Of a stretch of DNA of 18,982 nucleotides, positions 3,747 to 18,961 are shown in pieces. The notes under the pieces are model-generated. The model worked only from the letters and a program-made list of their open reading frames with translations, was not told the DNA's origin and did not search any database. The stretch covers positions 1 through 18,982 of the forward strand of contig VSJD01000271.1 in NCBI GenBank assembly GCA_008636095.1. Reading direction: 5' to 3'. Made by a program: the position numbers and the translations under genes. The stretch comes from Kiritimatiellota bacterium. Lineage in GTDB: Bacteria > Verrucomicrobiota > Kiritimatiellia > JAAZAB01. Positions within the stretch are counted from its first letter, which is position 1, and the number at the start of each line of letters is the position of its first letter.

Positions 3747-3942
3747 TGTTTTTTCCTCGTTTTTGTGATGATTTTTATTTTTTTAATCAAAAATCGTCAG
3801 GGACACGGGCATGCAATTACCAGACAAAAAAACACATTCCATTCATGGCCCGCCTCATAACTGACTACCTAATCGGCCTTACCGGCCGTCAAAATCGGTC
3901 GCCATCGGCATCCTGCCAACAAACGACCATCCGCAGACCATA
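3747..3942. other. Intergenic gap between the RCC1 gene and the upstream paralogue
   Basis: 196 bp without a credible gene. It holds the SD of the RCC1 gene (3754-3758), an AT-only inverted repeat GATTTTT/AAAAATC at about 3770-3796, and at about 3870-3942 a degenerate copy of the post-array segment seen at 590-713. I see neither a GC-rich hairpin terminator nor the 100-nt upstream element, so read-through from the gene before it is plausible. Confidence 0.5.
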
Positions 3943-6870
3943 TTAACGCACGGGTGTCCAATCCGGCCCGCCCCACGCGCCTCCGTTGTTGAGGATGATT
4001 CCGTTCACCAACGAGTAGATGGACCAATAACCGGCATTATACACGGCCAGGTCGGCCTTGCCGTCACCGTCGTAGTCACCGGGCACCGGGATCGAATCCG
4101 ACCCGCCCCACGCACCTCCGTTGATGAGAATTATTCCGTTCGCCAACGAGTAGATGGACCAATAGCCGGCATTATATACGGCCAAGTCGGACTTACCGTC
4201 ACCGTCATAGTCACCGGGTACCGGGATGGAATCTGCATCGCCCCACGTACCTCCGTTGATGAGAATTAATCCGTTCACCAACGAGTAGATTGACCAATAG
4301 CCGGCATTATACACAGCCAGGTCGGCCTTACCGTCACCGTCATAGTCACCGGACACCGGGATGGAATCTGCATCGCCCCACGCCCCGCCGTTGATGAGAA
4401 TTAATCCGTTTGCCAGCGAGTAGATTGACCAATAGCCGGCATTATACACAGCCAGGTCGGCCTTACCGTCACCGTCGTAGTCCCCGGGTACCGGGATGGA
4501 ATCCGCCCCACCCCACGCCCCGCCGTTGATGAGAATTAATCCGTTCACCAACGAGTAGATCGACCAATAACCGGCAGTATACACCGCCAGATCGGCCTTG
4601 CCATCACCGTCATAGTCACCGGGCACTGTGGTCCAGCCCGACCCACCCCACACCCCTCCGTTGATGAGAATTAATCCGTTCACCAACGAGTAGATGGACC
4701 AATAGCCCTCACGGTACGCGGCCAAGTCGGACTTGCCGTCACCGTCATAGTCTCCTTCCACGGAAGCGTTCGATTCAGCGTTCAGGGCTTGGCTATAAAG
4801 GCCGATTGTCGTACCGACCATCAGCTCATCCCAAAAGAGAGTCTTAATTTGCGTCCCGTTTGGATAATTAGCCACCGTAATCCAGCTACTCCCGCCATAG
4901 GGCAAATAATAAAGTGTGCGTACTGACGCCAGAACGGGCACATCGTTAAAGGCGCCATCCTTACCGACGACAATAACAGGTCCGACATCGCGGCCAAGGA
5001 TTTCACCACTCCCAAAATCACCCGGCAAACCGTTCGTAGTCAACATACTCCAGGTTGAACCGGCATCCCGATAATAAGCAACTACACCGTACCGAGATGG
5101 GTTCAAAGCATCCGGCAAAGTTCCGGAAGCATAAATGCCGCCGACCGAATCTTCTGCCATATCGCGGATATTCACCTCATTGGTCATATCCAGATCAACA
5201 GAAGACCCTATACGGTAAATGCCGCCTTGATCCCCTGCCTTGCTTTTTGACATCGCCGCGTAAATAATCCCCGCACCGCCTTCATTCCTGATAAGCAACT
5301 TATTAACGTCAACATTGGTTATCACGGCAGTCCAATTTGAACCGCTGTCCGTGCTGACAAAAACGCCGCCGCTCGGGCTGTCCAGCGAATAGCTGTAATA
5401 ACCCAAAGCGACCAAACTACTGTTGGCCTTAACCGATTTGATTTCGCCATCGGTCAAGTTGTAATTTGTCCAATTAAAGAGCTGAACCCATGAGGAATCG
5501 TTCGTGCCGCCGCCGGTGGTTGTTTTATAGAGCCGGCAACTGCCGGCATAGCCGGTCATGCCGCTTGGATCATCTGAATCAATCGCACAGGAAAATACAA
5601 TGGCGTCCGGAAAATCGCCGTCTGTCCAAACCGGGGTGGTGTTGAAATTGGTCGCAATGCGGACGCCGGCTTTGGAGGCGATCCAGGCAATAGTCTTGTT
5701 AGACAAGGCGTCAATATCATTAATCTGGAACGCCAACAGGCCGTTATTGAGTTCCACCACATCCAGGCCGGCGTTGGTTGAGCCACCAATACCTTTATCA
5801 GTGGTAACATAAATGAACTGCGAATTATTCGGGTCTACCTTTGTACACCCGGCATTAACGTGCATTGAAGGCGGCCGATACCCGCCGGGACGGGGCAACC
5901 CTATCCAACTGCCGTCCTCCCCTTTATTGGTGCTGACCGCCGCGCCATAATAAACTTCATAAGCGTTGGATGAGCCGTTACAGACAATATTAAGCCCGCT
6001 TCCGCCGCCGGAAAGAAGGCCACTCGTGTCAACATTAGTCCACGCCCCCCCATCGTCATCCGAATACGCCACCAATATCGTGGAGGAACCACCGCCCAGA
6101 AATAATCTGCCGTCTGGCCCGACCGCCACCTGACTTATGGACTGCTCCGTAACCCCCGCAACGGAGATTACCGAAAAAGTTGTCGCTGCACTAAAAGCGT
6201 CGTAATCATCCGATGACTTTAACAAGACAAAGTTTGTCTGATTATCACAGAGGACATAAACCTTATTACTAACCGGGTCGATGGCCAGCGACACAGAATT
6301 GCCGTAAAAATTAGTGCTGAGCGCAGCACCTAAAGTCAGGTTGCCAATGGTATTAAGCTCGCCGTGATATAGCGTCCGAGGATTCTCCGGGACCGCATGA
6401 CTAACGGCGAAAAGATGCGAGTTTTTTATCAAAACAAAGCCTATCGTATCATTAATGTTCGTCACCAAGCTGCCGCTGGAGGTAGTACAACTCAAAAGAC
6501 CACTGCTTAAACCGACATAAACCCTGCCCGACTCTTGATGGGCCGCCAACCATTCCGGGGCACCCAAATTGGAACTGGCATCCATGTCCGGCAAAACCGT
6601 AAAAACAAAGTTCGTGCCGAACGGCGTCGCGCTGGTATGATCCACGTCCGCGTAGAAGACCGAGTTGGCACTGTCAGTTGATGCAAAGACCCTGGTTTTA
6701 TTGGTATCACCCGGAACCTGGATGGCATCTATCGTGCCAATAGTACCGCCATAGACTTCAAATGCTTGCGGCACGGCGTTGGTGACGCCGTAAGCGTGCG
6801 AAGCGAACAACAAAGCAACTGGAATAATCCCGCAATATAGCCGTTTCCAACAATTAGTTTTCGAGCGCAT
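3943..6870 (-). CDS. Secreted Asp-box (BNR/sialidase-like) propeller protein with six-unit FG-GAP-like array (975 aa)
   Basis: Residues 1-28 form a signal peptide (MRSKTNCWKR, hydrophobic core, ending SHAYG). Residues about 30-695 are beta-rich with Asp-box motifs S-x-D-x-G-x-x-W: S270-D272-G274-W277 and S506-D508-G510-W513, plus a degenerate one near 449-461. These mark BNR/VPS10-type propellers, which occur in sialidases but also in many non-enzymatic binding proteins. I see no sialidase arginine triad or FRIP motif, so no enzyme activity is claimed. Residues 704-975 are six 45-residue calcium-loop units ending DWTPVR. It is a paralogue of the next upstream gene: VPQ..E.YGG.I at 33-43, then ANSVFYADVDH. 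SD AGGAGGAA (complement of 6876-6882) fixes the start. It lies 69 bp downstream of that paralogue and is likely co-transcribed with it. Confidence 0.8.
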   Translation of the reverse strand: MRSKTNCWKRLYCGIIPVALLFASHAYGVTNAVPQAFEVYGGTIGTIDAIQVPGDTNKTRVFASTDSANSVFYADVDHTSATPFGTNFVFTVLPDMDASSNLGAPEWLAAHQESGRVYVGLSSGLLSCTTSSGSLVTNINDTIGFVLIKNSHLFAVSHAVPENPRTLYHGELNTIGNLTLGAALSTNFYGNSVSLAIDPVSNKVYVLCDNQTNFVLLKSSDDYDAFSAATTFSVISVAGVTEQSISQVAVGPDGRLFLGGGSSTILVAYSDDDGGAWTNVDTSGLLSGGGSGLNIVCNGSSNAYEVYYGAAVSTNKGEDGSWIGLPRPGGYRPPSMHVNAGCTKVDPNNSQFIYVTTDKGIGGSTNAGLDVVELNNGLLAFQINDIDALSNKTIAWIASKAGVRIATNFNTTPVWTDGDFPDAIVFSCAIDSDDPSGMTGYAGSCRLYKTTTGGGTNDSSWVQLFNWTNYNLTDGEIKSVKANSSLVALGYYSYSLDSPSGGVFVSTDSGSNWTAVITNVDVNKLLIRNEGGAGIIYAAMSKSKAGDQGGIYRIGSSVDLDMTNEVNIRDMAEDSVGGIYASGTLPDALNPSRYGVVAYYRDAGSTWSMLTTNGLPGDFGSGEILGRDVGPVIVVGKDGAFNDVPVLASVRTLYYLPYGGSSWITVANYPNGTQIKTLFWDELMVGTTIGLYSQALNAESNASVEGDYDGDGKSDLAAYREGYWSIYSLVNGLILINGGVWGGSGWTTVPGDYDGDGKADLAVYTAGYWSIYSLVNGLILINGGAWGGADSIPVPGDYDGDGKADLAVYNAGYWSIYSLANGLILINGGAWGDADSIPVSGDYDGDGKADLAVYNAGYWSIYSLVNGLILINGGTWGDADSIPVPGDYDGDGKSDLAVYNAGYWSIYSLANGIILINGGAWGGSDSIPVPGDYDGDGKADLAVYNAGYWSIYSLVNGIILNNGGAWGGPDWTPVR
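3946..4761 (-). repeat. Six tandem 135-nt coding repeats, array 2
   Basis: 816 nt, exactly the same length as the arrays at 717-1532 and 6943-7758. It follows the junction LNAESNAS-V, which is identical in array 3. Units are near-identical in DNA. Variation is by position: the middle units carry WGDADSI, and the last carries NNGGAWGG.DWTPVR, as in array 3. Confidence 0.9.
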
Positions 6871-6939
6871 GTGACTTCCTCCTGGTTAAGACCGCTTCGT
6901 TTTTCGAACAATGACTGGTGAAAACATCCCCAGCCAATA

Positions 6940-9900
6940 TTAACGCACTGGGGTCCAATCCGCCCCACCCCACGCACCTCCGTTGTTGAGGACGATTCCG
7001 TTCGCAATCGAGTAGATGGACCAATAGCCGGCATTATACACCGCCAGGTCGGACTTGCCGTCACCGTCATAGTCACCGGGCACCGGGATCGAATCCGACC
7101 CGCCCCACGCACCTCCGTTGATAAGAATTAATCCGTTCGCCAACGAGTAGATGGACCAATAGCCGGCATTATACACCGCCAGGTCGGACTTGCCGTCACC
7201 GTCATAGTCACCGGACACCGGGATGGAATCTGCATCGCCCCACGCGCCGCCATTGATGAGAATTAATCCGTTTGCCAACGAGTAGATGGACCAATAGCCG
7301 GCATTATACACTGCCAAGTCGGACTTGCCGTCACCGTCATAGTCACCGGGCACCGGGATGGAATCTGCATCACCCCACGCCCCTCCGTTGATGAGAATTA
7401 ATCCGTTTGCCAACGAGTATATGGACCAATACCCAGCACGATACACCGCCAGGTCGGCCTTGCCGTCACCGTCATAGTCACCGGGCACCGGGATGGAATC
7501 CGCATCGCCCCACGCGCCTCCGTTGATGAGAATTAATCCGTTCACCAACGAGTAGATCGACCAATAACCGGCACTATACACCGCCAGATCGGCCTTGCCG
7601 TCACCGTCATAGTCTCCGGGCACCGTGATGGAATCCGACCCGCCCCACACCCCTCCGTTGATGAGAATTAATCCGTTCACCAACGAGTAGATGGACCAAT
7701 AACCGGCACTATACACGGCTAGGTCGGACTTGCCGTCACCGTCATAGTCGTTTTCCACGGAAGCGTTCGATTCAGCGTTCAGGACTTGGCCATACAGTCC
7801 TTCGCTGGTGCCCACCATCAGCTCATCCCAGTAAAGGACGTTGATCTGCGAACCAGCCGGGTAAGTCAGCGACGACGACGTCTGCCACGCGGATCCTCCA
7901 TGCGCCAAGTAATACAAGCTGACGCTCACGGCCATGATAGGCAAATCGTTGGTGTTGTTGTCCTTACCTACGGTTATCACCGGCCCCCGCCCGTTCACAG
8001 CCTGCAACTCCGGCGGCAACCCTGTGGTGGTGACTTCTGTCCAGGTGGCGCCCGAGGCCGCGCGATAATAAACCTTCAGGGCGTAACTCGAGTCCTGGCC
8101 GCTGGCATAGACGCCTCCGCTCGAATCCTCCGCAAGATTGCGGATACCAACCGCATTCGTCAACTCACGGATCACGGCTGTCGCGGCCACCTGATAAACA
8201 CCTCCCACGCCGGTGGCCGAGTCATAAGCCGCCGCCACCAGCAGGGTACCGTCGCTCATGAGCAGGACATCGTTGACGTCAACCTCCGTCATGGCCTGCG
8301 CCCAGTTGGTACCGCTGTCCGAACTGATCAGCAGGCCGCCCCGCGTTGTGCCCTGATCGTAAAACCCGGCAACCACAGTCTGACCCGATGCCTTGAGCGA
8401 TGAAAAATATCCGCCACTCTGGAACCCGTTGGTATTTACGTCAATATTCCATATCGGGGCGGGCCAGTTGGTACCGCCATCCGTTGTCTTATAGAGACGG
8501 GCATTACCAGCATACACGGTATTGCCGCTGGCATCGGTTTTGTCAATGGCAATGGAATAAAACGGCGAGCCGTCGAAATTCGGGAAAATGCCGTTTTCCG
8601 TCCACTGGAGCGCCATGGGGGTTCCGGTTCCTTTGCGCAACCCGGATTTGGAAGCCGTCCACGCCAGGGTTTTGGCCGCGTTCATGTCCAAGTCCTGGAT
8701 TTGTACGGCCTCCAAGCCGTAATCTATTTCAAAAAGATCGTGCCCGCCATTGGTCGAGGCGCCGATACCCTGGTCGGTGGTGACATAGACCGTGAGCGAA
8801 TTAATGGCATCGGCAACGACCACACCGTCGTTGGGATTGGTTTCTCTTGTGCCGAATTGCGCGATGCCCTGCCAGGAACCGGTGATACCTTTATTGGTGC
8901 TGACCATACTGCCGAAATACACGTGGTAATTATTGGTGTCGCCGGCACATTCAACATTGCCGCCGGTCGTGCCTCCCGCGCCGGTATCAACCGTAGTCCA
9001 CGATTTGCCATCATTGTCGGAATAGATACAGGCTTTGTTGCCTCCGGAATTGTTGCCCGCTATAAACAGCCGGCCATCCGGAGCAATACCGAAGCGCTTG
9101 GTGCCGGTCCAGGACGATATTACGTTGGTCACGTTCACACTCGAGAACGTCGCGCCGGAAAGCGCGTTAAAGGCGGCGGTAGATTTGATTAAACCGTTAG
9201 TGCTGTCACAGTCATAGATGTAGACACACTGATTGGTGGGATGGACAAGCAGGGCACGGGCATTGACGCCGGAGCCCCCGATGGTAATCGGGGAATCGGA
9301 TTTGGTAAAATTGCCGCCGGTGTCAATGGCGCCGAAATACAGTAAATTGGAATCGCCCATGTTGCCGATGGCCAGCAGGGTGGAGTCTTGAATAAAGATG
9401 GAGATAAAACACGGACCAGACGGCACTGGCGGCGCTGGCGGCGGCGGCTGCGTAACTTGTCCGATGATATTGGTAATGCGCGTTCCAGCGGTGGTAGGAT
9501 CACAGCTAAGCAGTCCGGCGTCATCCACGATAAATAATCGACCGGAAGCCGGATGGCCAGCGATGCCGCCGACCTGGCCAAAATTGGCCTGGGCATTGAA
9601 ATCAGGAACGACCGTAAACCTGAAATTATTGGTTGCATAGGGCATGGCCAGGGCATGATCCACGTCGCCATAAAAGATGGAGTTGGCGCTTTCCGTGGCG
9701 GCAAAGACGCGGGAGACATTCGGCTGATCGGTCAGTTCAATGGAATTGATGGCGGTAATGCGCCCGCCATAGATCGCCTGAATCTGTGGCACCGTGTTTG
9801 TGGTAGCTTCCGCAACCGACAAACTGATCAGCGCCAACAAGGCCACCAGGCACATTCCCGCCAAAAACACATTGCTGTTTCGCGTTGCGTCTGTTCGCAT
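6940..9900 (-). CDS. Secreted Asp-box (BNR/sialidase-like) propeller protein with six-unit FG-GAP-like array (986 aa)
   Basis: I start at the ATG at 9900 rather than an in-frame ATG at 9939. It has SD AGGAGGAA (complement of 9906-9913), gives a clean signal peptide (MRTDATRNSN, hydrophobic core, VAEA), and the upstream codons overlap a palindrome (9920-9939). Residues about 33-705 are a beta-propeller-like region with Asp-boxes SDNDGKSW (294-301), TTDGGTNW and SSDSGTNW, plus a proline-rich loop QPPPPAPPVP (151-160) absent from its paralogue. Residues 715-986 are six 45-residue units with GDYDGDGK(S/A)DLAVY. It is paralogous to the next gene downstream across its whole length. It is the first gene of the three-gene cluster and carries the cluster's upstream element (9995-10097). 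Probably an extracellular binding protein. The ligand is unknown and no catalytic residues are recognised. Confidence 0.82.
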   Translation of the reverse strand: MRTDATRNSNVFLAGMCLVALLALISLSVAEATTNTVPQIQAIYGGRITAINSIELTDQPNVSRVFAATESANSIFYGDVDHALAMPYATNNFRFTVVPDFNAQANFGQVGGIAGHPASGRLFIVDDAGLLSCDPTTAGTRITNIIGQVTQPPPPAPPVPSGPCFISIFIQDSTLLAIGNMGDSNLLYFGAIDTGGNFTKSDSPITIGGSGVNARALLVHPTNQCVYIYDCDSTNGLIKSTAAFNALSGATFSSVNVTNVISSWTGTKRFGIAPDGRLFIAGNNSGGNKACIYSDNDGKSWTTVDTGAGGTTGGNVECAGDTNNYHVYFGSMVSTNKGITGSWQGIAQFGTRETNPNDGVVVADAINSLTVYVTTDQGIGASTNGGHDLFEIDYGLEAVQIQDLDMNAAKTLAWTASKSGLRKGTGTPMALQWTENGIFPNFDGSPFYSIAIDKTDASGNTVYAGNARLYKTTDGGTNWPAPIWNIDVNTNGFQSGGYFSSLKASGQTVVAGFYDQGTTRGGLLISSDSGTNWAQAMTEVDVNDVLLMSDGTLLVAAAYDSATGVGGVYQVAATAVIRELTNAVGIRNLAEDSSGGVYASGQDSSYALKVYYRAASGATWTEVTTTGLPPELQAVNGRGPVITVGKDNNTNDLPIMAVSVSLYYLAHGGSAWQTSSSLTYPAGSQINVLYWDELMVGTSEGLYGQVLNAESNASVENDYDGDGKSDLAVYSAGYWSIYSLVNGLILINGGVWGGSDSITVPGDYDGDGKADLAVYSAGYWSIYSLVNGLILINGGAWGDADSIPVPGDYDGDGKADLAVYRAGYWSIYSLANGLILINGGAWGDADSIPVPGDYDGDGKSDLAVYNAGYWSIYSLANGLILINGGAWGDADSIPVSGDYDGDGKSDLAVYNAGYWSIYSLANGLILINGGAWGGSDSIPVPGDYDGDGKSDLAVYNAGYWSIYSIANGIVLNNGGAWGGADWTPVR
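6943..7758 (-). repeat. Six tandem 135-nt coding repeats, array 3
   Basis: 816 nt, 272 codons, with the same junction (LNAESNAS-V) and same terminus (DWTPVR, stop) as array 2. Most unit differences are single substitutions (S/A in GDGK.D; S, R or N before AGYWSIYS). The pattern is compatible with gene conversion between the two neighbouring genes. Confidence 0.9.
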
Positions 9901-9919
9901 GACACTTCCTCCTGAGTTC

Positions 9920-9939
9920 GTGACAGGTTTTACTGTCAC
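9920..9939 (-). promoter_or_regulatory. Perfect 7-bp inverted repeat in the 5' leader of the 9900-6940 gene
   Basis: GTGACAG (9920-9926), six bases, CTGTCAC (9933-9939). It lies 20-39 nt upstream of the chosen ATG, immediately before the SD. It could be an operator palindrome or a small leader hairpin affecting ribosome access. Function is inference. Confidence 0.4.
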
Positions 9940-10191: not shown

Positions 10192-13100
10192 CTATTTATC
10201 ACACTGTTTTTCACCTCGTTTATCATATGGCTCGACAGCGCAAAACGCCCGCGCAGCCAACAGGCAAAGCAGGCTCGACATTTTGAGTGCCGCCAGCAGG
10301 AAGCAAGTAGCCGTAATCCCAAACAGGGGCAAGAGAAAGACGCCGACAACCAATCCGCCCAGCGCGGCCCCCACGAGATCCGCCGCATTGGTAATCGCAG
10401 CGGTCCCTCCCTTGACTTTGGCAGGATCAACAGGCATGGGGCCAGCATCCGCTGAAATCGTGCTTTGCAAATTTTCCGCCGCATAATTAGCTTTGCATCC
10501 GCGATGGCTCATAAGTTCATTGACCAGCGCAAACTGGGCGCCAACCAGGGCGCCGCTCCCGGCAATCACCCCGTATATGAGCGCCTCTACCCAGCCCCAC
10601 GGAATCCAATTCATCAGGCCGGAAGAGAGTGCGGTCACCAGCCATGGGATACAGGCCGCCTCCACGATCAAAAGGATTTCCATGCTTATCATGGCGCGCC
10701 ATTGTCCCGACCTCTTGAGAGTCGGGACACACACCGTCGCGCCTAACATCAGCCCTAACATGAACATGGCCACGATCAAGCCGACCTTGGAATACACGTA
10801 CCCCAGCAGGGCCTGAAATACAAAGATCAAAATCAGTTCCAACGCCATGCCGCACAACCCGGTAGCGGCCATCACCAGCACCAGCATGCTCCGGGAAAAA
10901 ACGACCCCACTCCGCCTGCCCGCCAACTTGTCCGCCAACGTGTCCGGCGAAGCCTTGGCGAAGACGGAAGCTCTCGCCTCGGCGTAGCCTCCGGACTTCG
11001 GCGAGCTCAGTCGAGCCGCGGAGCCCGGGTCAGCGACGGTGGAAGCCTTGGCCTGCCTGCGCGAAGCGCTTCGGCGAAGGCAGGCGCAGGCGGGCCGGCG
11101 ACCAAGCACCGCTCCCATGCCGAGACATACAACGCCAAAACCCAGCAACGCACCCGCCACCCACTCCAGGCGCAAACGGGCAAGCCGCGCCAGCAGGGAT
11201 TCCAAGCCCGATTCGCTGAACCGGCTCCACAACGCAATCTGATAGAACGTGGACACGGGTTTCAAGACGGTGTTGGCCGTCACCGGGATGGCCGCCAGCC
11301 GCCGCTCGACAAAATCAAGTTTTGCCGGATTGATTTCATCGGCATTGAGAAAATACTCCGGCCGGAAGTAACGGGTCTTGAGATCCGCTCCGGCGCTACG
11401 CCGGAACAGCGTCGCGCGTTCCAATGTAATGGAGCTATTGGTTGCGCCGGCGAAAAACTGGTTTTTCGTGCCGGAGGTCACGAGCACGCGATCGAACACG
11501 GTCCTGATGGTTTTTGCTATGGAAGCGCTCAGAAACGCCGCCTCGCCCTGCAGGTCTGCGGACGCCGAGACCGCCGTGTAAAGAAATCCGCCGGGCGACA
11601 GGATGGAGCGAATGTCCCGGTAAAAGTCTTGCGTGTAAAACCGGTTAAGCGCAATTGTGGCCGGCTCGGAGGCATCCACCAGGATGGCGTCAAACAGTGG
11701 CGTACCCCCACCCCGTAACGAGTCAGTTACGGGAGTGTTGGTCCCAATGGCGGAAAAACCATTTCCACCTTTGTTATAGGGGGGGTATCGCGCCGGGTCT
11801 GCGGGCGCGATGGCGTCCGCAACGTGCATTTCGGCGCCCACCTCCTGGCGGGATTCGATCTTTTTGGGCAAGTTTGGTGCAGATGGCGGCGCGCCGCGTA
11901 CCGCGCTGGATATGTATCCGCGCAAACGTGGGAAGCCGGCAGATGCGCCAAAATCGCCCGAAAATATCGAACGAAATGCACGGCGCATGACTTCACCAAC
12001 CAACCCGGAGAAAACAAGCGAACTATTTCGTCTTACACCCAGCTCGTCCAGATTCCGTCCGTACTGCTTGGCGTAACGGGGCGCGTCCACGTGGACCTGC
12101 ACCAGGCGCGGATCGCGCAAGGCTTGGCGGTAAGCACTGGTCGCCACCAGCTCGAGCAGGCGACCGATTTTTTCATCCAACTCCACGTAGACCAGCTGTT
12201 CCAACGGGTATTTCAAAAGCTCAGGAATATCGTTGATCGGATTGCCGCCAATCAGCAGGACCCGCCGGGCATCCGGTTTCTGTGCCATAATAAAATGAAT
12301 CTTGTGCTCGCCGGTAACGGCGTCGGGAAAAACGGCCATCACCTGGCCGTTGGCGTAAAGGGTCATCTGCCCTTCGGTTTCGATTAACGCCAGATTCTGG
12401 TAGCGCGAATCACAGGAGGCCAGCAGACGCGAAGCGGACGAGGAACCGGATACCGGCAACGCGCCAAAGGAACGCCAGCGCGCCTCGACACTGGCATGCT
12501 CCAGCCTGCCCAAGCTCGACCAGGGCGGCGCCAGATAAGCAGGGCAACACGCGCTGACCGCAAAGGCGAACGCAATCAGCCCCAATAGCCAGCGGCATGT
12601 CCGTGTAGTGGTCAGCCAGGCCGCGCCCAGCAGAACGATGGCACCGGCCAACGCCGCCACGGCCAGTGGGCTCATGACCCATACCAGCCAGAACGAAAAA
12701 GCCACTCCCGCCGCCATACTACCCAGCGATTCAACCGCATAGACGCGGCTGACCGCGAACGGCAATTGCCGTGCAGGCAACTGCCGCGCGGCCAACCGGC
12801 AGGCACAGGGGAACACAATCCCGATGATCAGACAGCCGGGCGCAAGGATGACCGCCAGACTGGCAAGTATGGAAAAAAACGGGGCGTATTCCCCATACGC
12901 CACGTGGAGCGCGGTCCGCACGATGCGGATCACCCAGACCTGGAGCGGCAACAGAAAGGCCGCCAGCGTCAGCAAGACCACCAGCAGAACCCGCAGGCGT
13001 TCCTCCGGCCAGCGCGCGACCAGGGAGGTTGCCAGGAGCGAACCCGCGCCGATCAGTACCAGCCATGCGCTGAACACAGCGCCGATGGTGAGTTCGTTGC

Positions 13101-13236
13101 CAAAAAACACGACCAGGAATTCGCGCAGAAGCAGGACCTGCGCCAGGAGCGCATAGACTCCCATGCAGACCATGAGTGCCAGAATCCGACTGAAACCGGG
13201 GAAACCCGATATATCACCATTTGAGTCAAGGCTCAT
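10192..13236 (-). CDS. Fused-MFS/spermidine-synthase-like polytopic membrane protein with in-frame repeat insertions (1014 aa)
   Basis: Residues about 17-235 hold six or so membrane segments, with the family-typical QVLLLREFLVVFFGNELTIG at 33-52. A soluble Rossmann-like aminopropyltransferase region follows: RYQNLALIE, LYANGQVMAVFPD, EHKIHF, LLIGGN, VYVELDEKI, and, after an insertion, FDAILVDASEP and LNRFYTQDFYRDI. Further membrane segments run from about 680 to the end, including NAADLVGAALGG. The SAM-loop consensus GGGxGG reads GGNPIN here, and the usual DE.YHE patch is only partly present, so polyamine synthesis is doubtful. About 110 residues (about 400-514) are inserted between the DAPRYAK strand and FDAILVD; about 70 more (about 709-779) separate two membrane segments. 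Both inserts consist of dispersed DNA repeats, yet the frame is intact. The start at 13236 has no clear SD. It is divergent from the gene at 13645. Confidence 0.75.
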   Translation of the reverse strand: MSLDSNGDISGFPGFSRILALMVCMGVYALLAQVLLLREFLVVFFGNELTIGAVFSAWLVLIGAGSLLATSLVARWPEERLRVLLVVLLTLAAFLLPLQVWVIRIVRTALHVAYGEYAPFFSILASLAVILAPGCLIIGIVFPCACRLAARQLPARQLPFAVSRVYAVESLGSMAAGVAFSFWLVWVMSPLAVAALAGAIVLLGAAWLTTTRTCRWLLGLIAFAFAVSACCPAYLAPPWSSLGRLEHASVEARWRSFGALPVSGSSSASRLLASCDSRYQNLALIETEGQMTLYANGQVMAVFPDAVTGEHKIHFIMAQKPDARRVLLIGGNPINDIPELLKYPLEQLVYVELDEKIGRLLELVATSAYRQALRDPRLVQVHVDAPRYAKQYGRNLDELGVRRNSSLVFSGLVGEVMRRAFRSIFSGDFGASAGFPRLRGYISSAVRGAPPSAPNLPKKIESRQEVGAEMHVADAIAPADPARYPPYNKGGNGFSAIGTNTPVTDSLRGGGTPLFDAILVDASEPATIALNRFYTQDFYRDIRSILSPGGFLYTAVSASADLQGEAAFLSASIAKTIRTVFDRVLVTSGTKNQFFAGATNSSITLERATLFRRSAGADLKTRYFRPEYFLNADEINPAKLDFVERRLAAIPVTANTVLKPVSTFYQIALWSRFSESGLESLLARLARLRLEWVAGALLGFGVVCLGMGAVLGRRPACACLRRSASRRQAKASTVADPGSAARLSSPKSGGYAEARASVFAKASPDTLADKLAGRRSGVVFSRSMLVLVMAATGLCGMALELILIFVFQALLGYVYSKVGLIVAMFMLGLMLGATVCVPTLKRSGQWRAMISMEILLIVEAACIPWLVTALSSGLMNWIPWGWVEALIYGVIAGSGALVGAQFALVNELMSHRGCKANYAAENLQSTISADAGPMPVDPAKVKGGTAAITNAADLVGAALGGLVVGVFLLPLFGITATCFLLAALKMSSLLCLLAARAFCAVEPYDKRGEKQCDK
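10913..11099. repeat. GC-rich dispersed palindromic repeat inserted in frame in the membrane-protein gene
   Basis: The 34 bases at 10938-10971 match intergenic 13557-13590 at 32 positions. Farther in, GCCTGCC (11051-11057) pairs with GGCAGGC (11079-11085) around the perfect palindrome CGAAGCGCTTCG. On the gene strand it encodes the Ala/Arg/Ser-rich stretch at residues about 709-779, between two hydrophobic segments, where homologues would have a short loop (family knowledge). Confidence 0.65.
11712..11733. repeat. 8-bp inverted repeat inside the large insertion of the membrane-protein gene
   Basis: CCCGTAAC (11712-11719), six bases, GTTACGGG (11726-11733). It is followed within 70 bp by CCACCTTTGTTATAGGGGGGG, a style of C-run/G-run hairpin common among dispersed repeats in environmental genomes. 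It encodes the low-complexity residues just before FDAILVD. Together with 11824-11981 it makes the insertion a mosaic. Confidence 0.5.
11824..11981. repeat. ~157-nt palindromic element, in-frame copy inside the spermidine-synthase-like domain
   Basis: The outer stem is GTGCATTTCG (11824-11833) with CGAAATGCAC (11972-11981). The inner stem is TTTGGTGC (11873-11880) with GCGCCAAA (11945-11952), flanked on both arms by the conserved loop bases AGATG/CAGAT. The apical helix is CGCG (11895-11898), GCGC (11903-11906), bulged T, GGATA, loop TG, TATCC, GCGC (11920-11923), CGTG (11927-11930). The same architecture is present at 16064-16220 with compensating changes. On the gene strand it encodes about 52 residues (about 419-471), including SGDFGASAGFPRLRGY and PPSAPNL. 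Confidence 0.75.
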
Positions 13237-13396
13237 ATCATTCTACGTAGCAGATACATCCGGTCATGGCAATGGTGAAAGGATGTAGAATGGCATTTCA
13301 TATCTCGCAATCGGCAAATGTTCTGCTATATTTCTGAATCTTACATCGCGTTAGTTTGGCGCATCCCGCTCGGGGTGAGACTGGGTTGCACGCTTG

Positions 13397-13490
13397 CCAC
13401 GCGTTTCGCGCGGGCGCGCGGGGTACCGCTGTATAAGCATACCACGCGTAGCGCGTGGCAGGCTGTAATTTTATCACGCCCCAGGCGTGA
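13397..13490. repeat. Cluster of short GC-rich hairpins in the divergent intergenic region
   Basis: CCACGCG (13442-13448), TAG, CGCGTGG (13452-13458) is a perfect stem. A related but imperfect CCACGCG...CGCGCGG lies at about 13397-13413. TCACGCC (13474-13480), CCA, GGCGTGA (13484-13490) is another perfect stem. None is followed by a good T-run on either strand, so I treat them as REP-like repeats, not terminators. The gap 13237-13644 must also hold both divergent promoters; I cannot place these with confidence. Confidence 0.5.
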
Positions 13491-13546
13491 CTGCTCGCAA
13501 TCCATCAGCTGACGGACGCCAAAATTACGCGAGCGTCTTTTACGAA

Positions 13547-13607
13547 CTGCCTGCCGACGTGTCCGGCGTAGCCTTGGCAAAGACGGAAGCCTTGGCGCAG
13601 GCAGGCG
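13547..13607. repeat. GC-rich dispersed palindromic repeat, intergenic copy
   Basis: CTGCCTGC (13547-13554) pairs with GCAGGCAG (13597-13604). The interior 13557-13590 matches 10938-10971, inside the membrane-protein gene, at 32 of 34 positions. It lies about 40 bp before the beta-helix gene start, so it may form part of that gene's leader. Confidence 0.6.
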
Positions 13608-13644
13608 AACATCAGCGTTTCTGCAGGATGCCTTCATAACCCAA

Positions 13645-15417
13645 ATGCAATACAGAGTTTTTAGAGATGTCCCGATGTATGTTCTGCTTGCAACGCTGGT
13701 GGCGTGCTTATCCGTAAGGGCGTCGAGCAACGACGCCGCGATCGCCGAGGCGCTCGCAAAACCAGACAAGGTTGTCAAGGCAAGCTGGTTCGGCTATGAG
13801 GCTGCGGAAGCGACGAAGGCGTTGCAAGCGGCGATCAACTCCGGCGCAAAGAAGGTCATCATTGACAATGCCGGCGAATGGATCGTTGAACCGATAATCC
13901 TGACAAGCGACCAAGTGATAGAAATTGAGAAAAGCGCCGTCATCACCGCCAAACGAGGAGCGTTCAAGGGCACAAGTGACAGCCTGTTCAATCTCATCGG
14001 CATCCGCAATGTCACGATCGACGGCAACGGTGCGCTCCTGCGCATGTGGAAGAGCGACTACTTCAGCCCCGAGTATAAAAGGGGCGAATGGCGCACGGGC
14101 ATCAACATCCAAAGCTGTTCGAACATCACAGTTGGCGGGCTCACCATAAAGGATAGCGGTGGCGACGGCATCTATCTCGGCAACGCTGGCGAAGCACAGC
14201 CGTATTGCAAAGACATCGTCATCCGCAACGTCGTCTGCGACGGCAATGCGCGCCAGGGAATATCCGTCATCAGTGCGGAGAACCTGCTCATTGAAAACTG
14301 CACGCTTATCAACACGATCGGCACGCCGCCCGAGGCGGGTATCGACTTCGAGCCGAACTTCCCCCATGAACGCCTGGTAAACATCGTCGTGCGCAACTGC
14401 GTTGCGGAGAACAATAAAGGCGGCGGATACATCGTGTATTTCTGCAATTTCAATGAAACAACGACGAATGTTTCTATAACTTATGATAACTGCAGCGCAA
14501 AGAACAATGCGTTCGGCGGTTTCATGTACAGTTTTTGGCAAGGCTTTGAGGATTTCCCGGGACGAACAAAAATACGCATGCTAAATTGTCGCGCTGAAGT
14601 CCGCGGCTCGAACGAGACGTACAACACTGACGATTATGTGGCGGGCATCACGGCCGGCCTTCTAAAATTCAAGAAGAAGCAAAAGAGCGACATCATTTCA
14701 CGGACGAAGCCGTTTTCCGGTGACGGCAAAACATACGTTCCATTTAAGTCGTCAACCTCACCGGGGAAAGCACCGCCAGCGAAAGCACCGACGCCGCAAA
14801 TGCGTGAAAAATTCCGCTGTCTCCTCTATGCGCGGCAGGGGGAAACGGTAACGTTCAACGTCACCTTCAATAAGATCGGCGAGGCGGATATGACGCTTGC
14901 ACTCGATATCACCTCGCCGTCGGGAAATAAAATTGCCGTCGAACCCGCGCCCCTCGACCAGAAAAAAGAGTATCAATTTGCCGCAACGGAGACGGGCGTC
15001 TATACGATCAAAGGGCTTCCCGGCCTGTGCACGGCACAGCTCTCCTCCAAAACGCATTGCCTGTCCTTTGCTGTGGACACGCCGCTTAATATATTCAAAA
15101 GCACGGTATCGCTGTATTTCCTGGTGCCCGCAGGGGTAAAGGATTTTTATGCAAAGGTGTGGGGATCAGGCGGGGAAAAAGTGAATGCGACCCTTATCGA
15201 TCCGCAGGGCACAATGGTGAACAAACAGGACAACATTTCCGAATTTGCGTTCAAACTCGCCGCAAGCAGGAAGACTGCATGGAAGGATGAGGTATGGGCG
15301 ATAAAATTCGAGAAGCCGTCCGACGGATCCACCATCGAAGACTACTTCTTTTCGCTGTACGGCGTGCCGCCGGTGGTGGCATCGTCGAAAGGCTCGCTCC
15401 TTGTACCGCAGCAGTAG
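13645..15417 (+). CDS. Exported right-handed parallel beta-helix protein, possible lipoprotein (590 aa)
   Basis: This is the only plus-strand gene. The N-terminus MQYRVFRDVPMYVLLATLVAC is a signal peptide. LVAC matches the lipobox with Cys21, so lipid anchoring is plausible. Residues about 45-320 are parallel beta-helix repeats of the pectate-lyase-like/PbH1 type: WFGYEAAEATKALQAAINSG, NVTIDGNGALL, GGLTIKDSGGDGIYLGNAG, IVIRNVVCDGNARQGISV and LLIENCTLIN. A Lys/Pro linker (about 368-386) leads to a beta-rich domain (about 388-575) that I cannot name. DGNGA and GGDGIYLG recall GH28/pectate-lyase helices, but I cannot assign catalytic residues, so substrate and activity are open; polysaccharide binding or cleavage is the family expectation. 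The start is either 13645 or the internal ATG at 13675; neither has a strong SD, and I kept the longer form because it supplies positive charges before the hydrophobic core. Confidence 0.75.
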   Translation: MQYRVFRDVPMYVLLATLVACLSVRASSNDAAIAEALAKPDKVVKASWFGYEAAEATKALQAAINSGAKKVIIDNAGEWIVEPIILTSDQVIEIEKSAVITAKRGAFKGTSDSLFNLIGIRNVTIDGNGALLRMWKSDYFSPEYKRGEWRTGINIQSCSNITVGGLTIKDSGGDGIYLGNAGEAQPYCKDIVIRNVVCDGNARQGISVISAENLLIENCTLINTIGTPPEAGIDFEPNFPHERLVNIVVRNCVAENNKGGGYIVYFCNFNETTTNVSITYDNCSAKNNAFGGFMYSFWQGFEDFPGRTKIRMLNCRAEVRGSNETYNTDDYVAGITAGLLKFKKKQKSDIISRTKPFSGDGKTYVPFKSSTSPGKAPPAKAPTPQMREKFRCLLYARQGETVTFNVTFNKIGEADMTLALDITSPSGNKIAVEPAPLDQKKEYQFAATETGVYTIKGLPGLCTAQLSSKTHCLSFAVDTPLNIFKSTVSLYFLVPAGVKDFYAKVWGSGGEKVNATLIDPQGTMVNKQDNISEFAFKLAASRKTAWKDEVWAIKFEKPSDGSTIEDYFFSLYGVPPVVASSKGSLLVPQQ

Positions 15418-15722
15418 ATACGCGAACATCACGAGCATGCTGCCGCTCCTATCGCCGACGAAGAAAGACCTGTTCGTACCGGAAAAACAACACAAAAAAA
15501 ACGCCATGCATCAGGAAAACAGATACTACTACATCAATAATCCCATCGTAAACTCGATAAAATATTTAACCATAACAAGTCACATCTTGAGTAAAATAAT
15601 TTCAACAAGTCATTATCGGTCATCACAAGCATATATTCGCACATCCCGCCTAAAACTCAATGCTCAACCAGTACAGGACAGAGCACTATCGGAACGAAAA
15701 ACCAAGCACCAAGAACTGATCA
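15418..15722. other. Gene-free gap with low-complexity sequence
   Basis: 305 bp, AT-richer than the flanks, with no supported gene. The right end (about 15718-15744) is a degenerate direct repeat of the type TGATCACTAATCACTGATTACTGA, which also supplies the last codons of the small minus-strand gene next to it. No clear rho-independent terminator is seen for either converging gene. Confidence 0.5.
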
Positions 15723-15923
15723 CTAATCACTGATTACTGACATCTGCCCTATGACTTCCGATTGCTCGTGGCTCAGATGCCACCAACGCGCACCCAAACC
15801 TAATAACAGCAAACCAAGGATCACGGCGATGGAAAGCCGTTCGTTGGCCGTCAGGTAAAACCAGGCCCGCGGCAGATGCCGCCAGCCGTTATTCCCTTTT
15901 CCGGATGATTCATGGTTAGTCAT
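15723..15923 (-). CDS. Small single-pass membrane protein, 66 aa, possibly truncated
   Basis: The sequence MTNHESSGKGNNGWRHL, then AWFYLTANERLSIAVILGLL, then LLGLGARWWHL gives one membrane helix at about residues 29-46 with a polar N-terminus. LTANERL before a Leu-rich helix resembles the start of ComEA-like helix-hairpin-helix proteins in related bacteria, but no HhH domain follows. The C-terminus (GQMSVISD) is encoded by the low-complexity ATCACTGATTACTGACAT repeat and stops inside it, as if the gene had been cut short there. No convincing SD. It is the next minus-strand ORF after leuS, 455 bp downstream. A real small gene or a truncated remnant; I lean slightly to real because codon use and the helix look protein-like. 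Confidence 0.45.
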   Translation of the reverse strand: MTNHESSGKGNNGWRHLPRAWFYLTANERLSIAVILGLLLLGLGARWWHLSHEQSEVIGQMSVISD

Positions 15924-16020
15924 GGATCGTGTCTATATCCGTAACGTGCACGCTATTTACGGAGATCTTTTTAGTCAATTTTTTACAGAGAAAACGAGCA
16001 AGTTAAACGTTGCCTTGACC

Positions 16021-16046
16021 TACCCTCTCCAACGGGGGAGATTGGG
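16021..16046. repeat. Short C-run/G-run hairpin in the gap after leuS
   Basis: CTCTCC, AAC, GGGGGAG followed by ATTGGGTGG is a short hairpin of a kind often dispersed in environmental genomes. It lies just before the 157-nt element. The gap 15924-16378 contains these repeats and no supported gene. Confidence 0.4.
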
Positions 16047-16063
16047 TGGCATGTCAACGCAGG

Positions 16064-16220
16064 GCGAATTTCGCTTCCCGCGCAAGCGGGATTTGAAAAG
16101 CAAGACAAGTTTGGCTCAGATGCGCCGGCGGCGTGCGTAGCGCAATACTCGTGTATGCGCAAGCACGGCAACGGGGCAGATGAGCCAAAATCGCCGCCGC
16201 CTTTTTCAAACGAAATTCGC
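16064..16220. repeat. ~157-nt palindromic element, intergenic copy
   Basis: The outer stem is GCGAATTTCG (16064-16073) with CGAAATTCGC (16211-16220). A side hairpin is TCCCGC-GCAA-GCGGGA (16076-16091). The inner stem is TTTGGCTC (16110-16117) with GAGCCAAA (16182-16189). The apical helix is GTGC (16133-16136), GCGC (16140-16143), bulged A, ATAC, loop TCGT, GTAT, GCGC (16157-16160), GCAC (16163-16166). It matches the copy at 11824-11981 in length, orientation, loop sequence and helix order. The minus-strand frame used by the other copy is also open here (GGGDFGSSAPLPCLR ... SEPNL). Confidence 0.75.
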
Positions 16221-16378
16221 GCTGCTATTCACGATGACAGGCAACGCCGCAGCCGGGCCGACATCACGCGCAATCCATTTTGCCCGATCCGCAACACTTC
16301 GGCTTGGCACAAAAGCATCAACCGCGTCAGCGCTCCGTCAAGGCAAGTGAGAACAGCAAAGTAACCGCCGACCCAAGT

Positions 16379-18961
16379 TCAAGGCTTAAACACGATATTG
16401 ACCAGCTTGTCCGGAACAACCACCATCTTGACCACCTGCTCGCGCTTGACCACCTTGGCAATTTGCGACTGAGCCAGCGCCATATCCTCCAGGCTTTTAC
16501 GGTCGGAACCGGCCGGCGCCATCATCGTGCCGCGGAACTTACCGTTAAGCTGAAGCGCAATTTCCACCCGGTCACGCGCAAGGGCGGCGGGATCGGCCAC
16601 CGGCCAGGCGGCCTGCAGGACACCGGGGGCGTGACCCAACTCCACCCATAACTCTTCGGCAATATGCGGGGCCAGTGGCGCAAGCAGGAGGATGATAGTA
16701 TCAACCGCATGGCGGACGACAGATGACGGAGGATAGACGACAGACGACGGACGGCAGACGGCGGAGGCGGGAGGGCAGAAGCGTTCCACCTCGTTCATAA
16801 GTTCCATGATCTGGGCAACAACCGTGTTGAAATGGAAGGCGCCATCCAGACCGCTGGTGACAGACTGAATGGTTTCATGGGTCTTGCGGTAGAGATCGCG
16901 CTCCTGGGCGTTCATGCCCGCCAACTCCGGCGCGAGTGTCGCGGCCATTCGCAGAACATCGTGCCGCTCATACACGAAGCGCCAGAGCCGCTTGAGGAAC
17001 CGGAACGCCCCCTCGATGCCCTGGTCACTCCATTCGGCATCCTTCTCCGGCGGCCCGATAAAGAGCGTATAGAGCCGCACCGTGTCGGCACCATAATCGC
17101 GGATCAACTCGTCCGGGCTCACCACATTGCCTTTTGACTTGGACATCTTGTAAAGCTGGCCATCCTTTTCACTGCGTTTGCAGATCATACCCTGCGTGAA
17201 CAGGTTGGCAAAGGGCTCGTCGAAACTCACCAGCCCCATATCGAAAAGCGCCTTCGTGAAAAACCGCGCGTACATAAGATGCAGAATGGCGTGCTCGATG
17301 CCGCCGATATATTGATCTACCGGCAACCATTGGTTACAAACTTCGGTCTGAATGGCCTGATGGTCATCGCGCGCGGAAAGATAGCGCAGGTAATACCAAC
17401 TTGAATCAACAAACGTGTCCATCGTGTCGCTTTCGCGCTGGGCGGAAGCACCGCACTTCGGGCAGGTCGTGTTCATGAAGTGCGGATCGCGCTTCAGGGG
17501 CGATTCGCCCGTCGGCTTGAACTCCACGGTATCCGGCAGGAGTACCGGCAGATCCTTTTCCGGTACCGCCACGATACCGCAGGTCTTGCAATAAACAACC
17601 GGGATTGGCGCGCCCCAATAGCGCTGGCGGCTGATCAGCCAGTCGCGCAGGCGGTAGGTCACCATGGCACGCCCGAACTTTTTCTCCTCGGCATAAGCCG
17701 TCATCCGCGCCCTCGCCTGGTCGCTGGGTAGCCCGGTAAACGGGCCGGAATTTGCCGTGACGCCGTCCTCGGCATAGGCATCCGCCATGGTTTCCAGCCG
17801 GAGTGTCTGCTCCGCGTTCTGGATGGAAAGTTTTATGGGCAGACCGTATTTTTTGGCAAAGGCCCAATCACGCGTGTCATGCGCCGGCACGGCCATCACG
17901 GCGCCGGCGCCATAACTCATAATGACGTAATCGCCGACCCACAGTGGAATTTTTTCGCCGGTATAGGGATTGACCACGAACCGCCCCGTGAACACACCGT
18001 TTTTATCCAGGGTATTGCCCGCGCGGTCAACGGCGGCAACTTTGACCGCTTGGGCCGCAAATTTCATGACCAACGCTTCTTCCGGAAGGCCCTTCACCAG
18101 TTCCGGTAACTCCGGATATTCCGGGGCCAGGACCATGTAGGTGCACCCGAAGATCGTGTCCACCCGCGTCGTAAAACAGGCCACGCCAACGGCGGGCCTG
18201 CCCACCATAGCTTTAGCGACGGCAGGGTCCTGCTTGCCATCACGGCGCGGGACCAACGGGAACTCGATGCGCGTGCCTTCACTGCGTCCGATCCAGTTCT
18301 TTTGCATCAACTTGACCCGTTCCGGCCAGCCGGTCAGCTTGGCCAGATCGTCCAACAGGCGCTGGGCATAGTCGATGATCTTGAAAAACCACTGCTCAAG
18401 ACGCTTCTCCTGCACTGACGAATCACAACGCCAGCATTTGCCGTCAATCACCTGCTCGTTGGCCAGCACGGCCACGCAGGATGGGCACCAGTTGACCGGC
18501 GCAAACGCCTTGTAGGCCAGACCACGCTTGAAAAACTGCAGGAACAGCCATTGCGTCCAGCGGTAATAGTCCGGCAAGCAGGCGGTTACCTCGCGGTCCC
18601 AGTCATAACAACACCCCCAGGCGTTCAACTGCCGCTTCATGGTGGCGATATTGGCGAGCGTCGTGATACGGGGATGGGTTCCGGTTTTGATGGCGGCGTT
18701 TTCAGCCGGCAGGCCAAAGGCATCCCAACCCATCGGCGTCAACACGTTGAACCCGCACATTTTCTTGTAACGGGCCACGGCATCGCCAATGATGTAATTG
18801 CGTCCATGCCCCACGTGCAGGGCCGCCGACGGATACGGAAACATCATCAGGCAATAATATTTCTTATCGGTCTTACTCAAGTCCGCCTTGAACAAGCCCC
18901 GTTCGCGCCAGTAGGCCTGCCACTTCGGCTCAATTTCATCAAACGGATATTTTTCTTTCAT
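16379..18961 (-). CDS. leuS: Leucyl-tRNA synthetase
   Basis: Class I aminoacyl-tRNA synthetase that charges tRNA-Leu in the cytoplasm; 860 residues, normal for bacterial LeuRS. The HIGH motif is HVGH (49-52) within [20 protein letters not shown]. Zinc-type cysteines follow at about 158-178 (CPSC...CWRC). The CP1 editing domain carries [20 protein letters not shown] (about 260-279) and [17 protein letters not shown] (about 354-370). A second Cys pair CPKCG precedes [13 protein letters not shown], and KMSKS is at 605-609. The C-terminal anticodon-binding domain and tail end in NIVFKP. The ATG at 18961 has SD AAGGA (complement of 18968-18972), six bases away. Odd: a low-complexity segment, about residues 728-751, lies between [18 protein letters not shown] and [20 protein letters not shown], apparently an insertion. 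Core motifs are intact, so the enzyme should be active. Confidence 0.97.
16711..16780. repeat. Low-complexity GACGGACGACAGAC-type repeat inserted in frame in leuS
   Basis: Degenerate tandem units of 7-8 nt (GACGACA, GATGACG, GACGACG and similar) make 70 bp of biased sequence. They encode [13 protein letters not shown] and YPPSSVVRH, unlike any LeuRS core sequence. The unit looks like intergenic low-complexity DNA, not codons under selection. It falls in the helical anticodon-binding domain, at a loop where length can vary. Confidence 0.6.

Follow-up and report, generated by a model that had tools for sequence, protein, structure and literature searches.

Small palindromic repeats usually have a narrow host range and are regarded as debris. 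Rickettsia palindromic elements (RPEs) are described as palindromic sequences of about 150 bp with an open frame whose in-frame insertion is tolerated, and nearly half of the first-described ones were inside genes (PMC10969869). The bcr1 repeat is described as interspersed and intergenic, 147 or 167 nt long, with a conserved stem-loop (PMC2267715), and a reference title in PMC3446304 gives its host range as the B. cereus group only. Repeats of the Bacillus cereus group are presented in PMC3446304 as MITE-like and often located in UTRs or intergenic operon RNA. ERIC sequences are reported to be intergenic, with tens to hundreds of copies, and sometimes intragenic (PMC10969869), while REPs are given as 20-40 bp (PMC3733652). 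For a named ISL3 transposon, the inverted repeat GGGTCTTCGGA and 8-bp, once 7-bp, duplications are recorded (PMC9782665).

The window analysed here is a whole stretch of 18,982 nucleotides from a Kiritimatiellota bacterium. Two palindromes of ~157 nt in this window are members of one interspersed repeat family with an RNA-like fold. The family, found in the class Kiritimatiellae, probably consists of non-autonomous mobile elements that have a structured core and are moved in trans.

Copies in the window and the interrupted gene

The initial annotation had described one element of ~157 nt present in two copies. Both copies are real and belong to one family, but the repeated unit is larger, having a 5' hairpin module and a 3' module, and the two copies belong to different subfamilies with a third, interrupted related copy lying between them. 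The features were as follows.

10192..13236, minus strand: host gene for a membrane protein that combines spermine-synthase and MFS-like parts (Pfam PF01564; PF07690 below cut-off)
11787..11818, plus strand: A-iii 5' hairpin module (ATCGCGCC...GGGCGCGAT) and linker GGCGTCC, which precede other A-iii copies too
11819..11986, plus strand: core of the intragenic copy, subfamily A-iii (covariance model 139 bits, E 6.7e-30)
11987..12040, plus strand: A-iii 3' module with terminal TTTCGTCTTACACCC; in recent G003 A-iii duplicates the homology ends at TTTGTCTTACACCC
13327..13643, plus strand: diverged relative, assigned to family B, that shares the core motif and is broken by nested small palindromes (nhmmer B profile; pieces 13327-13543, E 1.6e-11, and 13604-13643, E 7.8e-8)
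15928..16307, plus strand: whole composite A-i element, its approximate extent judged by aligning A-i copies together with their flanking sequence; the 5' module covers about 15928-16058 and the 3' module about 16226-16307, with the core between them
16059..16225, plus strand: 168-nt structured core of the intergenic copy, subfamily A-i (covariance model 178 bits, E 2e-39), with outer stem GCAG.GCGAATTTCG/CGAAATTCGC.CTGC, small variable hairpin and long inner hairpin
16379..18961, minus strand: leuS, adjoining the intergenic copy and convergent to it (Pfam tRNA-synt_1_2, tRNA-synt_1)

The A-iii core is read on the minus strand within the host gene, and residues about 396-508 of the host protein are insert material. 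Comparison with homologues, which had been proposed as a check, found the segment (residues about 396-507) missing from orthologues in eight genomes (G003, G004, G005, G007, G008, G009, G011 and G015), all of which align on both sides of it. Among 685 candidate proteins scored, just 2 matched residues 405-510, and one of these is the window protein. The minus-strand frame, noticed earlier as shared by both copies, is the best of the six frames: 25 of 29 related copies have it open, where shuffled sequences gave about 8. These alignments indicate that the A-iii copy entered the gene and left the reading frame unbroken, and it is the only copy whose insertion in a gene was confirmed with orthologues. 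The G002 orthologue lacks the core and keeps the 5' hairpin module and the 3' module, therefore its "empty site" looks like the loss of a hairpin rather than a naive site. The copies most similar to this A-iii core are on contigs C174, C130 and C307.

The A-i composite is 96.6% identical with its G002 orthologue over 352 bp, the G002 contig ending on the 5' side. Around the same copy, homology with G003 breaks off at 15923 and restarts at 16379.

Fold, covariation and host range of the family

The core of about 168 nt forms a long imperfect hairpin, and a separate 5' hairpin stands before it. In plus orientation, the core is predicted to form an outer stem that encloses two hairpins, one small and exchangeable, the other long and interrupted by internal loops. 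Both window segments match the model on the plus strand with the same nested helices, and both fold far below shuffled sequences (z -8.3 for 11819-11986 and z -6.8 for 16059-16225; 0 of 200 shuffles equal). In the two folds, the conserved AGATG and CAGAT bases come together as a symmetric GA/GA internal loop. The exchange of T16116-A16183 for G11879-C11946 was read correctly from the sequence, and the position is an alignment pair (columns 64/132) with the types U-A, C-G and G-C.

The covarying helices noticed in two copies withstood a statistical test. In the genus alignment, double compensatory changes were found in 35 of 52 pairs, with 195 double-changed cells against 60 in shuffles, and 0 of 500 shuffles reached the observed value. 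Class-wide, they were found in all 57 of 57 pairs among 37 sequences, in an alignment that had been fitted to the model. One fold is kept across the class by compensatory change, the sequence itself being almost free.

That the plus strand is the folded one is supported, though less firmly. The G-U excess rests on the class-wide MAFFT alignment and is weak in the genus alignment. With a strand-neutral choice of pairs, the former showed G-U against A-C cells of 124:40 (33 against 8 pairs). In the genus alignment the ratio was 43:23 at one cut-off and 13:18 at a stricter one, and about even when the fold pairs of both strands were pooled. The minimum free energy was lower on the plus strand in 25 of 29 copies.

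The further copies anticipated from the window were found in its own MAG and in related genomes. The covariance model gave 74 matches in the own MAG, sorted into 57 non-redundant places (E <= 6e-11) and 17 others, of which 8 are the same palindromes read with the strands swapped, 8 are relatives that have the core alone and 1 is a truncated copy; blastn gave 44 matches there at E <= 10, pieces counted in. Four further genomes of the genus had 20-59 matches each. The family is present in 30 of 193 genomes of the class, the genus counted in, and reaches other families of the class. A phylum sample had 29 positive genomes out of 387, every one within the class, and the hosts with names are Kiritimatiellae and similar MAGs. 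The most similar paralogues within a genome reach 97.1% (G000) and 98.2% (G003) identity; with such near-identical copies, the family has moved recently.

A search of viral contigs with one core pattern gave 0 matches. In 20 loci, no Rfam model matched at its gathering score, and over window positions 11700-16400 the two sub-threshold matches were both elsewhere than the element. None of the titles listed from the open-licence PMC papers on repeats or structured RNAs of Kiritimatiellota, Kiritimatiellae, Lentisphaerae or Verrucomicrobia deals with this family.

Mobility and placement among genes

The A-i subset has the marks of a MITE: it is short, lacks a transposase, and shows terminal inverted repeats (GGTTCTTCCG...GAAGGACC, ISL3-like) and target duplications. 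Only seven catalogued copies have the ISL3-like left end. The right end is found in five of these seven, with perfect 8-bp target duplications in four and a 7-bp one in the fifth. Such ends were not seen in other subfamilies, and no target duplication was noticed at the inspected borders of their near-identical duplicates. Where duplicates within one genome are near-identical (95% or more), their homology extends over 204-422 bp, which leaves no room for a transposase gene. No mobilising enzyme lies near the window copies, as had been remarked at first. The cognate ISL3 transposase domain, PF01610, was not found in G000 (87% complete) or G003 (93%), both carrying ISL3-ended copies; within the genus, it is present in G002 (open frame) and G004 (fragment) only.

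Copies would move as DNA via transposases supplied in trans, which for A-i copies with these ends would presumably be of ISL3 type. New copies would survive mainly between genes and more often in sense orientation, the folded RNA being perhaps harmless or useful in sense transcripts, and stop-poor frames would allow few copies to persist within genes. As the sequence diverges, the pairs would be kept by selection acting on the folded strand, either for transposition or because of an RNA effect. Compensation after insertion is mixed and counts against this explanation: among changed base pairs in 12 same-site copy pairs, 51 were double and kept, 34 single and kept, 33 single and broken, and 7 double and broken.

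Another reading, possible though doubtful, is a functional structured RNA, leader or intercistronic, which would act on the stability, processing or translation of its own transcript, would be spread and exchanged through both transposition and recombination, and would be kept at certain sites. It agrees with the orientation of copies in co-directional spaces (sense to antisense 43:14), although this count includes copies at orthologous sites, which are not independent, and single genomes show a modest bias (G000 21:7, G003 10:3). The 3' end of a copy is usually about 50 nt before the next gene, and in several copies an SD and a start codon follow the same 3' module, but the downstream neighbour is on the opposite strand in 27 of 84 cases. 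Sister species have seven sites with the same orientation and a different best subfamily profile; two of these pairs are still alignable (75% and 67%), and the count leaves out L282/L161, which align throughout at 68%, and L127/L272, with two inverted copies against one. In 1.2 Mb of G003, chosen without regard to elements, the sites of 12 G000 copies could be mapped; 7 of the 12 faced an element, which in five cases belonged to another subfamily; against this, the other five sites had no recognised element in G003, one being a core-less version. Identity with the G002 orthologue is 97.6% for the intergenic window copy and 86.6% for the leuS side, yet some same-site elements diverge more than their flanks (71% against 93%). 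Species differ in the presence or absence of copies at sites. In the comparisons of G003 L116 with G002 L170 and of G001 L161 with G000 L125 a clean empty site was not found.

Re-occupation of sites by other subfamilies, together with the class-wide fold, exceeds what simple parasitic insertion predicts. One could picture a class-wide transposable riboregulator, in which one RNA fold with various transposon ends would be set down, lost and replaced time after time at given intergenic sites, without a change of orientation. We regard this as unlikely; if true, a site would retain "an element" while the sequence family switches between sister species. Besides its class-wide fold, the family offers one subfamily that bears transposon scars and another that is inserted in frame in a protein, and the different subfamilies at the same sites of sister species add to its importance. 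It makes testable whether small palindromic repeats undergo selection as RNA, and how non-autonomous elements outlast the transposases moving them.

Movement of the hairpins as single-stranded DNA by a RAYT or IS200-IS605-type Y1 tyrosine transposase, in the manner of REPs, is improbable. The palindromic single-strand fold would suit it, and Y1_Tnp genes are present in 162 of 193 class genomes, but they show no clear association with the element (28 of 30 positive against 134 of 163 negative genomes). G002 (70% complete, 20 element matches) and G056 have elements and no Y1_Tnp match, 12 fetched Y1 loci, a part of the Y1 genes, had 0 copies in their surroundings, and one subfamily has 8-bp duplications. 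The RAYT suggested in the initial annotation is therefore rejected as partner; its palindromic covarying family with intergenic and in-frame copies is real.

A reverse-transcribed element or retron-like RNA, with an outer stem round a small and a long hairpin, is very improbable. Retron RNAs are similar in architecture and length, but reverse transcriptase genes had no clear association across the class (17 of 30 positive against 69 of 163 negative genomes), G004 (25 matches) and G007 (8 matches) have none, and this partner was rejected. Chance similarity or an ordinary protein domain, which the open minus frame might favour, is refuted by dozens of intergenic copies, compensatory changes and orthologues without the segment.

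Comparison with known systems

We take the family as non-autonomous elements moved in trans, and by analogy the element appears to work like RPEs and bcr1; membership of either is not demonstrated. A likeness to integron attC was considered and dropped, because family B varies at the GTTAG bases. Compared by description, ERIC is alike in its intergenic multicopy habit and differs in host group. REPs are palindromic and dispersed as here, but are shorter, and no Y1 association was found here. The A-i subset resembles ISL3 transposons and MITEs in its ends and its 8-bp (once 7-bp) duplications; unlike ISL3, only the outermost bases GGTCCTTC are common to the A-i ends and the G002 ISL3 element, and the other catalogued copies have no left end. 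The RPE likeness proposed initially holds, judged from descriptions, for size, palindrome, open frame and tolerated in-frame insertion. It fails for frequent residence in genes: a crude ORF caller placed 7 of 102 genus copies in called ORFs, 6 of them near the ORF end, and most copies are intergenic, whereas almost half of the RPEs described first were genic. With bcr1 and the B. cereus repeats, as they are described, the family shares intergenic location, similar length and a stem-loop; it differs from bcr1 in having one fold throughout a class, 5' and 3' modules that differ, and subfamilies that vary at the same site.

Fold and anatomy of the element

The two palindromic segments reported in the initial annotation are present in the window as described, the nested helices common to both were borne out by alignment, and the quoted base-pair exchange between them is correct. 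Both segments fold far better than dinucleotide shuffles. With one relative, the copies in the window are:

16059-16225: intergenic copy of the folded core (~168 nt), subfamily A-i, beside leuS (from 16064 in the initial annotation)
11819-11986: intragenic copy, subfamily A-iii, in a membrane-protein gene (from 11824)
13327-13643: a relative belonging to family B, located between the two copies above and interrupted by nested palindromes

The core has an outer stem of ~9-11 bp and, directly within it, a small hairpin swapped among copies (e.g. TTCCCGC...GCGGGA, TCCGTCAGCTGACGGA, CCCCGAGCTTGTCGAGGGG). The long hairpin that comes next contains a GA/GA internal loop, to which the AGATG/CAGAT bases noticed earlier correspond, and more internal loops; its apical stem has a single-base bulge. 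A 5' hairpin and short linker precede the core, as judged by eye in the genus copies listed and most of 20 distant copies, and a 3' module differing among subfamilies comes after it. Full-model matches were 144-227 nt long, most of those listed being ~160-172 nt, in distant families too. Nested small palindromes occur in several copies, one site in G003, a genome of the same genus as the window's own MAG (G000), has a core-less version with outer stem and small hairpin only, and in other families the whole unit is found in tandem duplication (344 nt, 92.7%, at G031 L104:725-1479); G060 L387 has repeated units. Inverted element pairs with 5' ends facing each other, spaced ~170 to 1,330 bases, were seen at L188, L169, L184, L127 and L363-L365, in five genomes of two families. 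Six copies (L082, L129, L128, L068, L165, L180) had a common 3' module end, AATCATCA(T/C)AGGAG. Because a start codon lies <=10 nt past this end in 5/5 copies listed beyond it, a ribosome-binding site apparently comes with the element as part of this module.

The helices covary, as had been claimed. In A2, an alignment of 29 full copies, 95.6% of cells pair and double changes occur in 35 of 52 pairs (slid versions of the pairing, 8-12 pairs). Double-change cells numbered 195 vs 60 in shuffles, and 0/500 shuffles reached 195, a count which is not a probability because the A2 copies are related. In a class-wide set of 37 sequences, whose alignment was fitted to the covariance model R1, all 57 predicted pairs showed double changes. 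When the same sequences were aligned with MAFFT and pairs were picked on Watson-Crick content alone, G-U vs A-C was 124 vs 40, and 33 pairs leaned to G-U vs 8. On A2 this signal was weak (43:23; 13:18 with a stricter cut-off), and combining the fold pairs of both strands gave no bias. The MFE of the + strand was below that of the - strand in 25/29 copies. We read the + strand as the one that folds, probably in RNA form. Pair compensation after insertion was mixed: among base pairs that changed in 12 same-site copy pairs, 51 double and 34 single changes kept the pairing and 33 single and 7 double changes broke it, and the sole changed pair between the window's intergenic copy and its orthologue in G002, of the same genus, is broken.

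Distribution and position relative to genes

G000 is a MAG of 3.8 Mb in 357 contigs, 87% complete. Searching G000 by blastn with the intergenic copy gave 44 matches (E <= 10); the best match other than itself was 93% identical over full length, and the nearest relatives of the intragenic copy were on three other contigs. R1, built from A2, gave 74 matches in G000 (150 of 2,011 first-look candidates scored), of which, by our sorting, 57 are non-redundant places (E <= 6e-11) and the other 17 comprise strand-swapped readings (8), core-only relatives (8) and a truncated copy (1); further genomic copies are thus confirmed. With strand-swapped readings included, the four other genus members had 24, 20, 59 and 25 matches and other genera of the family 1-8. 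Any R1 match was found in 15 of 38 genomes, G000 among them. In a survey of the class (193 genomes, at most 14 candidates scored per genome), 30 genomes including the own genus matched at E <= 1e-6, from 22/97 genera. The class-wide model R2 was run on 387 genomes sampled from the phylum, this class included; 29 matched, all of them in the class. A 21-base core pattern matched 26 stretches over GTDB contigs, 25 of them from MAGs named Kiritimatiellae, Kiritimatiellaeota, Lentisphaerae or Verrucomicrobia; the remaining one, from a Clostridia MAG, was taken as chance.

Copies had been claimed both between and inside genes. Both kinds exist and the intergenic kind dominates: by a crude codon-usage gene caller, 7 of 102 copies scoring >= 60 in five genus genomes lie in a called ORF. 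In co-directional spaces of these genomes 43 were sense vs 14 antisense (21:7 in G000, 10:3 in G003), and a distance of ~50 nt typically separates the element's 3' end from the following gene; for these counts the relatives had been retrieved by their element score, and copies at orthologous sites do not count as independent observations. A 1.2 Mb portion of G003 chosen without regard to elements had 20 copies scoring >= 60, 4 of them in called ORFs; its co-directional spaces contained 9 sense vs 3 antisense copies, numbers too small to be used by themselves.

The copy inside the membrane-protein gene

The host protein has 1014 aa with spermine-synthase and MFS-like parts, and ~113 residues (396-508) are insert material. 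The expectation that homologues would miss the insert was confirmed in eight orthologues (G003, G004, G005, G007, G008, G009, G011, G015), whose flanks align on both sides without this segment. The G002 orthologue (open frame 936 aa; 89% and 81% identity on the two sides) kept the flanking modules, and the core is absent; probably G002 lost the hairpin, or else the core was gained in the window gene. An ordinary domain shared with distant taxa had been considered earlier. Residues 405-510 are not a widespread domain, because only two of 685 scored candidates matched, the window protein and a 78% identical relative (926 aa). One minus frame is open in 25/29 copies vs 8 expected, and the five other frames in 11-17 of 29 vs 7-9 expected.

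Other repeats in and near this gene are:

11712-11786: palindromic insert adjoining the A-iii copy, read as PPYNKGG, within the residues that orthologues lack
10929-10971 and 13548-13590: repeat pair, 88% identical, a second repeat kind in the membrane-protein gene; the first lies inside the gene, its partner between the two pieces of the family-B copy
714-9939: 135-nt tandem repeats common to three adjacent large genes; two were scanned, with FG-GAP repeats in both and RCC1 repeats also in one

Turnover, mobility and kinship

Seven orthologous sites occupied in two species had different best subfamily profiles, with the same orientation in all, in a sample biased by fetching relatives around elements:

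the window's own site next to leuS: A-i (G000, G002) or A-iii (G003)
other six sites: L137/L181, L085/L255, L070/L254, L074/L174, L157/L179, L121/L172

Sequences were viewed at six sites, and L074/L174 was judged by profile only. At four (window, L137, L085, L121) blastn gave no alignment between the two elements, though both flanks align. Since the cores align at L070/L254 (75%) and L157/L179 (67%), the difference at these two may be divergence in place. Of 73 catalogued G000 copies, B and C types among them, 12 could be mapped by both flanks onto the 1.2 Mb portion of G003; 5 faced no element and 7 faced one, 2 of the same subfamily and 5 of another, two of these 5 facing one single copy. 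This portion contains 767 spaces, 210 of them >= 250 nt, and 20-28 copies; we roughly estimate chance occupancy at ~3-13%, so co-occupancy by chance is unlikely, on small numbers. In twelve same-site pairs labelled with the same subfamily, element identity was lowest at 71%, where the flanks are 93% identical, and highest at 97.6%, where the flank has 86.6%. Element replacement and repeated hot-spot insertion could each account for this turnover.

Identity between paralogues goes up to 97.1% in G000 and 98.2% in G003, and recent duplicates have abrupt homology borders. An A-i group has the ends GGTTCTTCCG (left) and GAAGGACC (right), with target duplications of 8 bp (AAAAAGAA, ATTTTAAT, AGAATATA, AACCGGAA) and 7 bp (AAACTTA); the right end was not recognised in 2 of 7 copies having the left end. 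No duplications were noticed in other subfamilies at borders of the recent duplicates listed. Y1_Tnp (28/30 element-positive vs 134/163 negative genomes) and RT (17/30 vs 69/163) were not convincing as partners. For PF01610 transposase genes, G000, G001 and G003 had no match, G002 had an open frame and G004 a fragment; 9/20 genomes were positive.

In ends and duplication length the A-i group resembles a named ISL3-family transposon, reported to have such ends (IR GGGTCTTCGGA) and 8-bp, once 7-bp, duplications (PMC9782665). The ISL3 element of G002 starts with GGTCCTTC, as does the inverted right end of the A-i MITE, and further in the sequences differ. We do not assign the element to RPE, REP or bcr1, because defining features failed or were compared at the level of descriptions. 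By kind it belongs with the structured interspersed repeats, together with bcr1, ERIC and RPE. As far as our literature searches reach, its novelty lies in the host group, in how deeply a single fold is conserved, in ends that differ and in the fixed-site turnover.
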